Shown: positions 6,259 to 25,991 of the stretch, piece by piece
How the letters are laid out: the number at the start of each line of letters is the position of its first letter
How positions within the stretch are numbered: position 1 is the first letter of the stretch
Source: an uncultured Eubacteriales bacterium
GTDB taxonomy: Bacteria > Bacillota > Clostridia > Christensenellales > Aristaeellaceae
Direction: 5' to 3'
Length of the DNA stretch: 64,000 nucleotides
NCBI GenBank assembly: GCA_902789795.1
Contig: CADAPM010000006.1
Location: forward strand, 1-64,000
Notes under the pieces: generated by a model
Database searches by the model: none
The model's input: the letters and a program-made list of their open reading frames with translations, nothing else
What the model was told of the DNA's origin: nothing
Program-made: the position numbers and the translations under genes

Positions 6259-6381
6259 GAAGTAGGAAGGAGGAAGTAGAAAGTAGGAAGTAGGAAGTAG
6301 TATTACTCCTGCTCATGGCGCAAGGAACGCCGAGGCAAGAACAATAATTACTTCCTACTTCCTAACTCCTACTTCCTACTT
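6259..6381. repeat. Heptad-arm palindromic element A
   Basis: Left arm of GAAGTAG-type heptads (6259-6300), core 6301-6349, right arm of complementary CTACTTC-type units (6350-6381). The core is itself an imperfect hairpin closed by GGCG-N7-CGCC. It starts 11 nt after the VWA stop and lies between convergent genes. Same family as the elements at 10599, 21128, 22721, 24225 and 25891. Confidence 0.85.
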
Positions 6382-10598: not shown

Positions 10599-10735
10599 GT
10601 TTAAGTAGGAAGGATGAAGTAGGAAGTAGGAAGTAGGAAGTAGGAAGTAGGAAGTAATTCTACTTCTGCTCCCGGCGCACCAGACGCCGCTGCATGAACA
10701 TGAATTACTTCCTACTTCCTACTTCCTACTTAAAC
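10599..10735. repeat. Heptad-arm palindromic element B
   Basis: Longest of the short copies. Ends are a perfect 12-bp inverted repeat (GTTTAAGTAGGA at 10599-10610, complement at 10724-10735). The left arm has about seven GAAGTAG units, the right about three. The inner repeat GGAAGTAATTC/GAATTACTTCC encloses a hairpin core with GGCG-N7-CGCC. It starts 14 nt after a + strand stop (first heptad 18 nt after it) and lies between convergent genes. Confidence 0.88.
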
Positions 10736-20235: not shown

Positions 20236-21120
20236 ATGAAAATCGCATTCATCGGCCTTGGCATCATGGGCAAGCCCATGGCGAAGAACCTGCTCAAGGC
20301 TGGCCACCAGCTGCGCGTCTATGACCGCAACACCGCGACCCTGGAAGAGTTGAAAGCCGCCGGCGCGACCGTCTGCTCCTGCTCTGCCGAGACCGCCGAA
20401 GGCGTGGACGCTGTCATCACCATGCTGCCCAACAGCCCGCACGTGAAGTCCGTCATGCTCGAGGACGACAAGCTGGCCGAAAAGATGCCCAAGACCGCTA
20501 CCTTCATCGACTGCTCCTCCATCAACCCCGTGGCCTCCCGCGAGATCGCGGCCGAGCTGGCCAAGTACGGCATCGACATGCTGGATGCGCCCGTGTCCGG
20601 CGGCCAGCCCAAGGCCATCGACGGCACCCTGTCCTTCATGGTCGGCGGCAAGAAGGAAGTCTTTGACAAGTTCGAGCCCGTCCTCAAGGCCATGGGTTCT
20701 TCCGTGGTGCTGTGCGGCGACGTAGGCGCGGGCAACGTGACCAAGCTGTGCAACCAGACCATCGTGGCCGTGAACATCGCGGCGCTGGCCGAGGCCATGC
20801 AGATGGGCCAGATGTGCGGTGTTGAGCCCCAGAAGATCTTCGAAGCCATCAAGGGCGGCCTGGCCGGTTCCACCGTCATGAACGCGAAGGCCCCCATGAT
20901 GATGGACCAGAACTTCCAGCCCGGCTTCCGCATCGACTTGCACATCAAGGACCTGAACAACGTGGTCGACGCCGCCAAGGCCGTGGACGCCCCCATCCCG
21001 CTGACCCAGGCCGTGCTCGAAATGATGAAGATCCTGCATCACGACGGCGACGGCTCCTGCGACCATAGCGCCCTGCTCAAGTACTACCAGAAGCTGACGG
21101 GGGAAGTGCTGCATCACTGA
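20236..21120 (+). CDS. garR: Tartronate semialdehyde reductase (3-hydroxyisobutyrate dehydrogenase family)
   Basis: A 294-aa NAD(P)-linked beta-hydroxyacid dehydrogenase. Rossmann motif GLGIMGKPMAKNL (residues 7-19), substrate loop DAPVSGGQPKA (SGG 121-123) and catalytic K170 in GNVTKLCNQ. GarR/GlxR members reduce tartronate semialdehyde to D-glycerate. The next enzyme, glycerate kinase, follows after an S23-bearing insertion. AGGAGG precedes the ATG. The family includes close alternatives (3-hydroxyisobutyrate), so the context supports the name. Confidence 0.88.
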   Translation: MKIAFIGLGIMGKPMAKNLLKAGHQLRVYDRNTATLEELKAAGATVCSCSAETAEGVDAVITMLPNSPHVKSVMLEDDKLAEKMPKTATFIDCSSINPVASREIAAELAKYGIDMLDAPVSGGQPKAIDGTLSFMVGGKKEVFDKFEPVLKAMGSSVVLCGDVGAGNVTKLCNQTIVAVNIAALAEAMQMGQMCGVEPQKIFEAIKGGLAGSTVMNAKAPMMMDQNFQPGFRIDLHIKDLNNVVDAAKAVDAPIPLTQAVLEMMKILHHDGDGSCDHSALLKYYQKLTGEVLHH

Positions 21121-21127
21121 CAGTGAT

Positions 21128-21556
21128 AGGTTGAAGGGTGAAGGTAGAAGGTTGAAGGTTAGGATGTATGGATGAGAAAACAGCAGCTTATAAGAGTAAG
21201 CGGTTTGCTGTTCGCATAGTGAGGATGGTACAGCATCTTTCCCGGGAAAAGAAAGAATTGGTCTTATCCAAGCAGGTCCTGCGCAGCGGCACCAGCATCG
21301 GAGCGAACCTTGCTGAAGCTGAATGTGCGGCCAGTTCCAAAGACTTTCTGGCTAAGAAATATATAGCGCTGAAAGAGTGCTCAGAAACAAGATATTGGCT
21401 AGAACTGCTGCACGAAACCGGATACCTTTCAGACGAAGAGTTCAGAAGCATTTATGATGATTGCCAGGAACTCATGCGAATTCTCTCTGCGTCTACTAAA
21501 ACCTTAAAAGAGCAACTCTAATCTCCCTTCAACCTTCAACCTTAACCCTTCAACCT
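21128..21556. mobile_element. Heptad-arm element F enclosing an S23 gene
   Basis: Left arm 21128-21163 of GGTTGAA/GGTAGAA-type units, right arm 21525-21557 of the complement (CCCTTCAACCTT...). The ends include a perfect 11-bp inverted repeat, AGGTTGAAGGG (21128-21138) and its complement (21546-21556). The arms hug the S23 gene: 4 nt before its ATG and 3 nt after its stop. It begins 7 nt after the garR stop. No clear target-site duplication is seen. Confidence 0.65.
21168..21521 (+). CDS. S23-type four-helix-bundle protein
   Basis: A 117-aa basic helical protein of the family first seen in 23S rRNA intervening sequences. RSGTSIGANLAEA (39-51) and IALKECSETRYWLELL (66-81) are diagnostic. The family also includes the Avd accessory protein of diversity-generating retroelements, but no reverse transcriptase or template repeat is seen. 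Its A+T content is higher than that of its neighbours, and it lies inside inverted heptad arms between garR and garK, so it looks inserted. The purine-rich left arm (AAGGTTAGG) seems to serve as its ribosome site. Function unknown. Confidence 0.93.
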   Translation: MDEKTAAYKSKRFAVRIVRMVQHLSREKKELVLSKQVLRSGTSIGANLAEAECAASSKDFLAKKYIALKECSETRYWLELLHETGYLSDEEFRSIYDDCQELMRILSASTKTLKEQL

Positions 21557-21574
21557 TAATTGGAGGTTATCACC

Positions 21575-22720
21575 ATGAAACTCTTATTTGCCCCCGACTC
21601 CTTTAAGGGCTCTCTGACCGCGATCCAGATCACCGATATCCTGGAAAAGGTCGCTGTGCGGCATTTTCCGGGAGCGGAAATGGTCTCGATCCCGGTGGCG
21701 GACGGCGGCGAAGGCACCACGGACGCTCTGCTGAGGGCTGACTTCGGCCAGAAATTCCGCATCCCCGTGACCGGCCCGCTGTTCGAGAAAGAGGATGCCT
21801 CCTGGGGCATGCTCGGCGACGGCGAGACCGCCGTGATGGAGATGGCGCAGGCCAGCGGCCTGCCCTATGTGGCGGAAGCGCACCGTGATCCCCGCAGGAC
21901 GACTTCCCTGGGCACCGGTGAGATGATCCGCAACGCTATCCAGATGGGTGCGACCAAGATCCTGATCGGCATCGGCGGCAGCGCTACCAACGACGGCGGC
22001 ATGGGCATGCTGGCAGCGCTGGGCGCGAAGTTCACGGATGAGGCTGGACAGGAAGTGAGCCCGGTGGGCGGAAGCCTCATCAAGGTGGCGTACGCGGATT
22101 TCTCCGGTCTGATGCCGGAGCTCAAGGATGTGGATATCACGGTCATCTGCGACGTGACCAATCCTCTGCTGGGCGAAAGCGGCGCGACCTGGATCTACGG
22201 GCCCCAGAAGGGCGCGACCCCGGACATCCGCGACGAGCTCGAGGAAGGCATGACCAATTACGCGAAGGTCGTTTCCGCGGCAGTCGGACGCGACATCGCC
22301 AATTTCCCCGGCGCGGGCGCTGCCGGCGGCCTCGGCGCTGCCCTGGGCGGCGTTTTGCAGGCGCGGCTCAAGAGCGGCATCGACGCGGTGCTGGAGGCGG
22401 TGCGCTTTGATCAGAAGCTCCAGGGCGTCGACCTGGTGGTGACCGGCGAAGGCCGCATCGACGGCCAGTCCGTGCGCTTCGGCAAGGTGCCCGTGGGCGT
22501 GGCCAAGCGCTGCGCGGCTCATAACATCCCCGTATGCGCCATCGTCGGCGGCATCGGCGACGGCGCGGAAGGCCTGTACGATGTCTGCGAAAGCACCATC
22601 CAGACCACCGTGTCCGGCCCCATGCTCCTGCAGGACGCCATGACGAACGCCGCCGCGCTCTACGAAAGTGCCGCGGACCGGCTGTTCCGGGCGATAAAGA
22701 TTGGAATGAAACTCAAGTAA
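21575..22720 (+). CDS. garK: Glycerate 2-kinase
   Basis: A 381-aa type I glycerate kinase, converting D-glycerate to 2-phosphoglycerate with ATP and so joining aldarate breakdown to glycolysis. APDSFKGSLTA (6-16), VADGGEGTTDALL and IGGSATNDGGMGMLAALG are family signatures. GGAGG lies 8 nt before the ATG at 21575; the open frame extends a few codons upstream. The gene follows the right arm of element F and is followed at once by element C. Confidence 0.95.
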   Translation: MKLLFAPDSFKGSLTAIQITDILEKVAVRHFPGAEMVSIPVADGGEGTTDALLRADFGQKFRIPVTGPLFEKEDASWGMLGDGETAVMEMAQASGLPYVAEAHRDPRRTTSLGTGEMIRNAIQMGATKILIGIGGSATNDGGMGMLAALGAKFTDEAGQEVSPVGGSLIKVAYADFSGLMPELKDVDITVICDVTNPLLGESGATWIYGPQKGATPDIRDELEEGMTNYAKVVSAAVGRDIANFPGAGAAGGLGAALGGVLQARLKSGIDAVLEAVRFDQKLQGVDLVVTGEGRIDGQSVRFGKVPVGVAKRCAAHNIPVCAIVGGIGDGAEGLYDVCESTIQTTVSGPMLLQDAMTNAAALYESAADRLFRAIKIGMKLK

Positions 22721-22831
22721 AGGTAGAAAGTAGGAGTTAGGAAGTAGGAAGTAAAGTATGTTTTGCGAACCCATATCTCTGGAAGACTGAACCAGAATTA
22801 CTTCCTACTTTCTACTTCCTCCTTCCTACTT
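22721..22831. repeat. Heptad-arm palindromic element C
   Basis: Starts on the base after the garK stop. The left arm (22721-22754) mixes GTAGAAA, GTAGGAG, TTAGGAA and GTAGGAA units; the right arm (22801-22831) is their complement. Inner ends are GGAAGTAA and GAATTACTTCC. The core of about 45 nt is less palindromic than in A and B. The right flank ATGCATGA is shared with element D. Confidence 0.82.
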
Positions 22832-22889
22832 CATGCATGACAGCCCTCTCTTGGTTGAGAATTAGATTTTAGAAAGGCAGGCGTTTACA

Positions 22890-24224: not shown

Positions 24225-24327
24225 AAAGTAGGAGTTAGGAAGTAAATAGTGTTCATTGAAGCGGCGGCTGTAACGGTTGGCGCAGAACATGAATCACTTC
24301 CTACTTCCTACTTTCTCCTTCCTACTT
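24225..24327. repeat. Heptad-arm palindromic element D
   Basis: Starts 7 nt after the gudD stop. Short left arm (AAAGTAGGAGTTAGGAAGTAA, from 24225 to 24245), a core of about 50 nt with GTTCATTGAAGCGGCGG, and a longer right arm (24296-24327). The right flank ATGCATGA is shared with element C. Confidence 0.8.
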
Positions 24328-25888: not shown

Positions 25889-25890
25889 TG

Positions 25891-25991
25891 AGGTAGGAGT
25901 TAGGAAGTAGGAGTTAGGAAGTAATGAGTGTTCCTGAAATGGCGGAACACTTCTTACTTCCTACTTTCTACTTCCTCCTTCCTCCTTTTTT
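25891..25991. repeat. Heptad-arm palindromic element E
   Basis: Starts 3 nt after the garD stop. Left arm 25891-25924 (GGTAGGAGTTAGGAAG repeated), core hairpin GTGTTCC-N9-GGAACAC, right arm 25955-25987 ending in a run of T (CCTCCTTTTTT), so it may also act as an intrinsic terminator for garD. Confidence 0.83.

Follow-up and report, generated by a model that had tools for sequence, protein, structure and literature searches.

The window analysed here, a 64,000-nt stretch of DNA from an uncultured Eubacteriales bacterium, holds a gene for an S23 protein between two inverted arrays of tandem heptanucleotides, which raises the question of what such arms have to do with S23 and whether the gene is the coding member of a wider family of repeat elements. 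To our knowledge, S23 proteins (annotated as “four helix bundle protein”) have no assigned function. Repeat and PF05635 searches confirmed that the gene is enclosed by inverted period-7 arms in the gap between two genes that we take to be garR and garK, with which their domain families agree (Table 1). Positions 21128–21158 were found complementary to 21526–21556 at 94% over 31 nt in an inverted-repeat search of the window, and the left arm begins 7 nt after the stop codon of the garR-like gene. A first-pass annotation of this DNA had given the slack between gene and arms as 4 and 3 nt; the enclosure stands but the exact values do not, as the array edges give 7 and 4 nt, a difference due to the variable cut point of the degenerate last unit. 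Between these terminal inverted repeats S23 was the only gene found, with no transposase, and a search around the element showed neither promoter-like nor terminator-like sites. An Rfam scan returned no rRNA at gathering score in the window, the S23 gene sitting between garR and garK instead. The RNA of the element is predicted to fold with left and right arms paired (z -5.76), and the closest solved structure to its protein is 2rld (E 4.8e-30, five chains). Separately, a minus-strand S23 gene in the sample from the Treponema phylum (L186) has 73% identity to the S23 of the window when aligned model columns are compared, while the best identity in the first named-locus set was 67% by a different measure; the similarity of L186 hints at transfer between phyla.

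Table 1. Features of the window (window coordinates) and S23 loci of two gaps compared between related genomes
Feature	Position or locus	Strand	Basis
Upstream operon gene, garR-like, NAD_binding_2/11 dehydrogenase	20236..21120	+	domain matches
Left arm, about 5 units of GGTTGAA-type heptad, purine-rich read inward	21128..21160	+	period-7 array, 4.7 units
S23 / 23S_rRNA_IVP four-helix-bundle gene, 117 aa	21168..21521	+	PF05635 98.6 bits, cut-off 33.8
Right arm, GGTTGAA-type heptad word inverted relative to left arm	21526..21557	-	period-7 array, 4.6 units
Downstream operon gene, garK-like glycerate kinase, Gly_kinase	21575..22720	+	domain match
Gene-less inverted heptad element, AGTAGGA word	6259..6381		array and word-pattern searches
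Gene-less inverted heptad element, AGTAGGA word	10603..10731		array and word-pattern searches
Gene-less inverted heptad element, AGTAGGA word, garK-enolase-like gap	22720..22832		array search, sister comparison
Gene-less inverted heptad element, AGTAGGA word; short left arm at about 24225-24244	about 24225..24327		array and word-pattern searches
Gene-less inverted heptad element, AGTAGGA word	25890..25987		array and word-pattern searches
KDPG-aldolase-like gap loci	G000:C11:17629-17925 (L002); G007 (L012); G001 (L015, L134); G003 (L136)		
Thiolase-like gap loci	L264, L271, L278, L270, L282		

Five further elements had been described as following the same arm logic without a gene. All five were located in the window, although their word is AGTAGGA (GGAAGTA) as opposed to the GGTTGAA around S23. 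Two units of GGAAGTA with at most two mismatches matched the window 35 times against 0.06 expected, so that these arrays are not due to chance. Across the host genome (G000, at 88% completeness), a 21-nt pattern of the AGTAGGA word with at most three mismatches gave 122 forward and 108 reverse matches, counts that include overlapping matches within arrays, compared with 3 and 4 for the same pattern read backwards. By eye, the spacers of the elements at 10603–10731 and 24225–24327 have GAACATGAAT in common beside the right arm. The host genome has two detectable S23 genes at this completeness, and the second is likewise enclosed by inverted arms, of a word (TGATAAG) differing from that of the window arms, between genes that we read as UxaA-like and KDPG-aldolase-like.

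The association of S23 with such arms extends far outside the window. Arrays were scored as local self-matches per lag within 200 nt of a gene, at thresholds of 9, 12, and 15, around 93 S23 genes from the best 80 of 588 relatives (genome contigs) and 12 viral loci (95 ORFs, two of which were dropped for short flanks). The first-pass annotation had suggested comparing the flanks of S23 genes with those of other genes, and the difference was large: arrays at lag 7 stood on both sides of 71 of the 93 S23 genes (56 and 42 at the stricter scores of 12 and 15), compared with 7 of 195 genes of these loci at a distance of over 600 nt from S23, or 27 of 357 when the element's neighbours were kept among the controls. 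At each of lags 4–6, 8–13, and 15–20, no S23 gene of the 93 had arrays on both sides, lags 14 and 21 having been set aside as multiples of 7. Array density was 12-fold higher within 250 nt of S23 than elsewhere in the same loci. The titles of the locus records include Clostridia, Bacteroidetes, Spirochaetes, Verrucomicrobia, Lentisphaeria, Acidobacteria, and Neisseriaceae, and arrays accompany S23 in several phyla: both-sided period-7 arrays were found in 8 of 24 loci from the phylum of the Treponema seed, 6 of 30 from that of the Flavobacterium seed, 12 of 28 from that of the Neisseriaceae seed, and 9 of 27 among relatives of the window's genome, although such array fractions are not unbiased frequencies because the loci came from the top of ranked lists. 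S23 itself matched in 61 of 80 genomes from the phylum of a Flavobacterium locus, with up to 16 matches per genome.

A merged set of 292 S23 genes combined the earlier loci, the best-scoring loci of the genome search, and regions picked by hand from ranked lists, leaving out ORFs with fewer than 75 matched positions, short flanks, or duplicate sequence. The best period was 7 in 199 of these genes, 8 in 25, another in 3, and none in 65. Arrays on both sides at score 9 were present at lag 7 in 135 genes, at lag 8 in nine, and at lags 6, 9, and 12 in one each, and none were found at lags 5, 10, and 11. Period-7 or period-8 arrays thus lie beside 224 of the 292 sampled genes, contrary to the possibility, raised at the outset, that S23 homologues usually lack arms. 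Together, the 71 of 93 and 199 of 292 genes support the earlier proposal that the window S23 gene is a coding member of a family defined by heptad arms. In searches of open-access literature, no description of S23 genes lying within inverted heptad arms came up.

Within an element, the two arms carry one word: they agree at 6.22 of 7 letters, compared with 3.92 for arms of different elements (n = 135). Words are many. In the inward direction they are rich in purines (mean 0.66 at period 7), and the order of their letters shows only a modest similarity between elements (score 695, against at most 624 in 20 column-permuted controls). An apparent near-invariant A was rejected, a column-permuted control giving equal information content. 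Arm length peaks at 31–33 nt at period 7, and arms usually hold five 7-nt units, or 8-nt units in some S23 clades, five being the commonest number in both (172 of 345 arms at period 7; 12 of 38 at period 8) as well as in arrays farther than 450 nt from S23 (62 of 163). The S23 homologues 2rld and 2gsc in the PDB have five chains each, and the paper on Xcc0516 (2gsc) reportedly, from its title in a reference list, describes a quaternary structure of five four-helix bundles. Unit length tracks the phylogeny of S23, with 14 changes between periods 7 and 8 against a mean of 24.1 and a minimum of 21 in 300 shuffles. The word follows S23 sequence weakly (Mantel r 0.19, none of 300 permutations as high, 191 S23), and words diverge even between proteins 50–70% identical; of the pairs with 50–60% identity, 7% have words matching at 6 of 7 letters. 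Only elements with closely related S23 proteins agree in their words, which makes a fixed recognition code unlikely, and this weak link would speak in favour of either a quickly evolving recognition or a recognition of spacing instead of letters.

The arms behave as two arrays of one word and not as an exact inverted copy. Maintenance of an exact hairpin was rejected, as arms match one another no better in register (0.857) than when shifted by one unit (0.854; 66 arm pairs). Stops in all three frames occur in 53% of period-7 arms read inward, compared with 25% after base shuffling and 16% read outward (n = 305), and in 52%, 22%, and 41%, respectively, of period-8 arms (n = 29); the preferred reading has no need of this feature. 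Arrays elsewhere in a locus match the word of their own S23 at 6–7 letters in 40% of 151 cases, compared with 5% when the S23 words come from other loci; families made up of coding and gene-less copies would give this result.

A second architecture was found around S23 genes of the type of locus L009, whose N-terminus reads MSESKLRDLSMDFSV. Tandem arrays lie on both sides of only 4 of 84 such genes and on at least one side of 20. However, 23 of these 84 loci contain a constant 7-mer repeated with different hairpins between the copies, with stems of at least three pairs abutting the 7-mer; at least 5 of the 23 had already been seen in a first set of loci. Scanning the 84 loci by word length gave 7, 15, 5, 23, 1, 8, 0, 1, and 0 loci for k = 4 to 12, and the counts at k = 5 and k = 9 may be 7-mer arrays with one stem pair shifted. 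The arrangement was present in 0 of 133 random windows of the first set and in 1 of 199 period-7 S23 loci. Hairpin-separated 7-mers such as ATATCGC, ACATCAC, and ATTTAGC can be seen in L021 and L380 (the same place), L349, L396, L411, L429, and other L009-type loci. After being turned according to a single rule (a rule that in itself gives some positions preference), the 7-mers resemble A-T-W-T-C-A-C. Counted by hand, forward and reverse arrays together surround S23 in 7 of the 23 loci and both lie upstream in 16. No L009-type relatives were found in viral contigs. With the hairpins folded out the 7-mers become tandem, and since hairpins of differing length would not keep helical phase, this is a hint that the unit may be recognised in single-stranded or folded form.

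S23 elements lie within operons, mostly in the sense direction. Among 197 loci classified (27 others being left out), 30 had divergent and 17 convergent neighbours, and where the two neighbours were co-directional, S23 pointed the same way as both in 134 of 150 loci, a bias equally expected if all S23 requires is the promoter of the operon. The element takes up little space in its gap, as gaps measure a median of 20 nt without it (95 co-directional loci), and the left arm edge lies a median of 2 nt from the upstream stop codon (n = 161). Targeting of stop codons was considered and rejected given such tight gaps and the about equal use of either side in 31 roomier ones (13 and 12 elements); selection in tight operons suffices to explain the placement. 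S23 is under purifying selection, pN being lower than pS in all 84 pairs compared and the median ratio being 0.087 among the 27 pairs that give a finite value, and the protein therefore matters. In two plasmid loci, L131 (NZ_LR882951) and L132 (NZ_OY725736), one S23 gene lies between genes annotated as DISARM drmD and BREX pglX, and another between those for type I restriction S and R subunits. According to the available part of PMC3936711, 23S_rRNA_IVP genes also occur within cas loci, one example being between cmr3 and cmr2, which fits intra-operon insertion. Neither of two candidate partners was retained. Reverse transcriptase (PF00078) was found in 9 of 21 genomes with S23 vs 16 of 79 without (overlaps counted by hand) and was rejected because the genomes G000 (88% completeness), G004, and G007 have no PF00078 match; Y1 transposase was not commoner in S23 genomes (3 of 21 vs 23 of 79, by hand). 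Judging from the genome data examined, the element seems able to do without either enzyme.

Among related genomes, one and the same gap can be occupied by S23, hold a gene-less element, or be empty. The garR-garK gap, which holds S23 with arms in G000, contains a gene-less element of another word in G007, a small hairpin in G001, and a plain hairpin without heptads in G004 and G006; garK of G002 has a different upstream neighbour, and garK had no match in G003 and G005. Arms around an unrelated gene at this locus would have spoken against a link to S23; those of G007 enclose no gene at all. The garK-enolase-like gap contains a gene-less element in G000 and one in G007, each with its own word, and no heptad element was found in G001, G004, and G006. 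The gap at the KDPG-aldolase-like gene (a gene lying elsewhere in G002, G004, and G006) carries S23 in G000 and G007, an S23 gene with an in-frame stop in G001, and only arm remnants in G003, that is, three S23 copies with different arm words and one remnant in four sister genomes. At one site, the word of both arms has changed from copy to copy. In the gap that follows a gene identified by eye as thiolase-like, stop and start are 3 nt apart in G320, and the gap is occupied by an S23 element with 8-nt units in G309, a near relative of that element in G281, and a different S23 gene in G293. Gene-less copies have the arm word in common with coding copies, and in G007 also inner sequence: by eye, the sequence adjoining the right arm is alike in both, so that gene-less copies look like deletion derivatives. 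No target-site duplication was seen by eye in the compared gaps, where flanks are too diverged.

Taken together, we consider that the window element is probably one copy of a transposase-less mobile element of about 0.4–0.6 kb, in which an S23 gene lies between inverted arrays that serve as binding arrays for its product. As the first-pass annotation had supposed, S23 may recognise or spread its own repeat arms. The steps that we infer, namely binding, RNA processing in transcripts other than rRNA, and movement, would run as follows. A ring of five S23 subunits would bind an arm with about one subunit per unit, which would keep unit length and number constant. Binding would act on single-stranded or folded nucleic acid, as suggested by the constant 7-mers of L009-type loci that become tandem only with their hairpins folded out. 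The arms would pair in the mRNA and then be cut by RNase III, as happens in vitro for the Coxiella rRNA element, making an insertion between cistrons mild, and S23 could work in trans on gene-less copies. Against this stand the 65 of 292 S23 genes without such arrays, and the fact that only 135 pass on both sides at lag 7.

An alternative, which we regard as unlikely, is that of a passive intervening sequence, with the arms being an RNase III stem that renders the insert harmless, S23 a passenger, and the 7-nt unit a product of slippage. The predicted pairing of the arms in the window element would suit it, as would the Coxiella burnetii element, whose 28-bp terminal stem is cut by RNase III in vitro and whose S23, reported to be evolving reductively and, it appears, not produced in vivo, looks expendable in the available part of PMC4990558. 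However, a passenger would not be expected to show purifying selection in every pair compared, nor would a mere stem account for a unit length that follows the S23 tree, a pairing register that is not kept, or 7-nt units that persist where hairpins separate them. Slippage by itself, with S23 nearby by chance, is very improbable: an earlier survey found heptanucleotides to be the commonest class among long simple repeats in most of its genomes, and polymerase slippage was proposed as their source (available parts of PMC4679880 and PMC4692102), but this leaves unexplained why one word stands inverted on both sides of S23, why arrays are 12-fold enriched there, and why some S23 clades have period 8.

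S23 could instead be an immobile small operon gene that regulates its own or the operon's mRNA by binding the arms. The prevailing sense orientation, a purine-rich left arm close to the S23 start, and the lack of a promoter-like site found around the window element are all consistent with such a host cassette, and repeats in ribosomal protein operons of Beggiatoaceae were proposed to be regulatory (available part of PMC4679880). Still, we give this reading a small probability, smaller than that of a passive insert, since the host operons are many and unrelated, the same gaps are empty in sister genomes, two different S23 types occupy the same gap, and G000 carries a gene-less family in high copy number. 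We thus return to a mobile S23 element as the preferred reading. Its fixed repeat architecture would offer a direct handle on the substrate of S23, each gene's own arm being a candidate; it ties together two old puzzles, namely how rRNA intervening sequences arose and why bacterial genomes have an excess of 7-nt repeats, and it points to an unrecognised insertion process within operons. A bolder generalisation, which we put forward tentatively and think rather doubtful as a whole, would have S23 genes form a class of transposase-less mobile elements spread over several bacterial phyla, in which a pentameric ring reads five single-stranded or folded RNA or DNA units, one per subunit, with unit length set by S23 clade (7 or 8 nt, or 7-mers brought into step by hairpins that can fold), driving both tolerance through RNA processing and spread, and with intervening sequences and part of the bacterial heptanucleotide excess as products.

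Among known systems, rRNA intervening sequences are the nearest. The Coxiella element described in the available part of PMC4990558 is 428 nt long, encodes S23, has inverted termini, and lies in helix 45 of 23S rRNA, with two or three GACAGAT units and one degenerate unit before the S23 start. Those passages discuss the heptamers as strain variation and cut site, term the element selfish, and cite older transposition ideas. Similarly, the window element encodes S23 (PF05635, 98.6 bits) with inverted termini predicted to pair in RNA, and it has tandem heptamers before the S23 start. Unlike intervening sequences in a 23S helix, however, the elements studied here are found between cistrons that encode proteins; their words and unit lengths differ from case to case, and they have relatives without a gene that reach high copy numbers. 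Of 58 S23 loci, 40 were scanned with Rfam, and one (L193) was in an rRNA operon, in the 23S-5S spacer. At about 640–1170 of this locus, from the Treponema phylum sample, the S23 element has heptad-like arms by eye, and its S23 frame appears interrupted. From the arms of L193 and the GACAGAT units and stem of Coxiella, rRNA elements look like the same thing in another place, and rRNA intervening sequences may thus be a special case of the S23 element.

Known heptanucleotide repeats, such as GGGAATC in Xanthomonas and GGGGATT in Nostoc (available part of PMC4692102) or TAACTGA in Beggiatoaceae (available part of PMC4679880), have the same 7-nt tandem units and are likewise intergenic and partly intra-operon, although the Beggiatoaceae sets described there are direct repeats but for one, whereas the present arms are inverted. 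That study proposed an unidentified repeat-binding protein, possibly itself the mobile element; the terms “S23” and “helix bundle” are absent from its text, as is “four helix” from that of PMC4692102. Avd, from diversity-generating retroelements, belongs to a fold family related to S23, PF05635 being the commonest family in the dataset of PMC10053308, as far as its available part goes; the difference from Avd retroelements is that no reverse transcriptase match was found in G000, G004, or G007. Finally, the elements differ from MITEs and REP/RAYT in having no transposase between their arms, in arms made of tandem heptads, and in a Y1 transposase that is not commoner with S23, and resemble both in that short inverted non-coding copies are related to a coding master.
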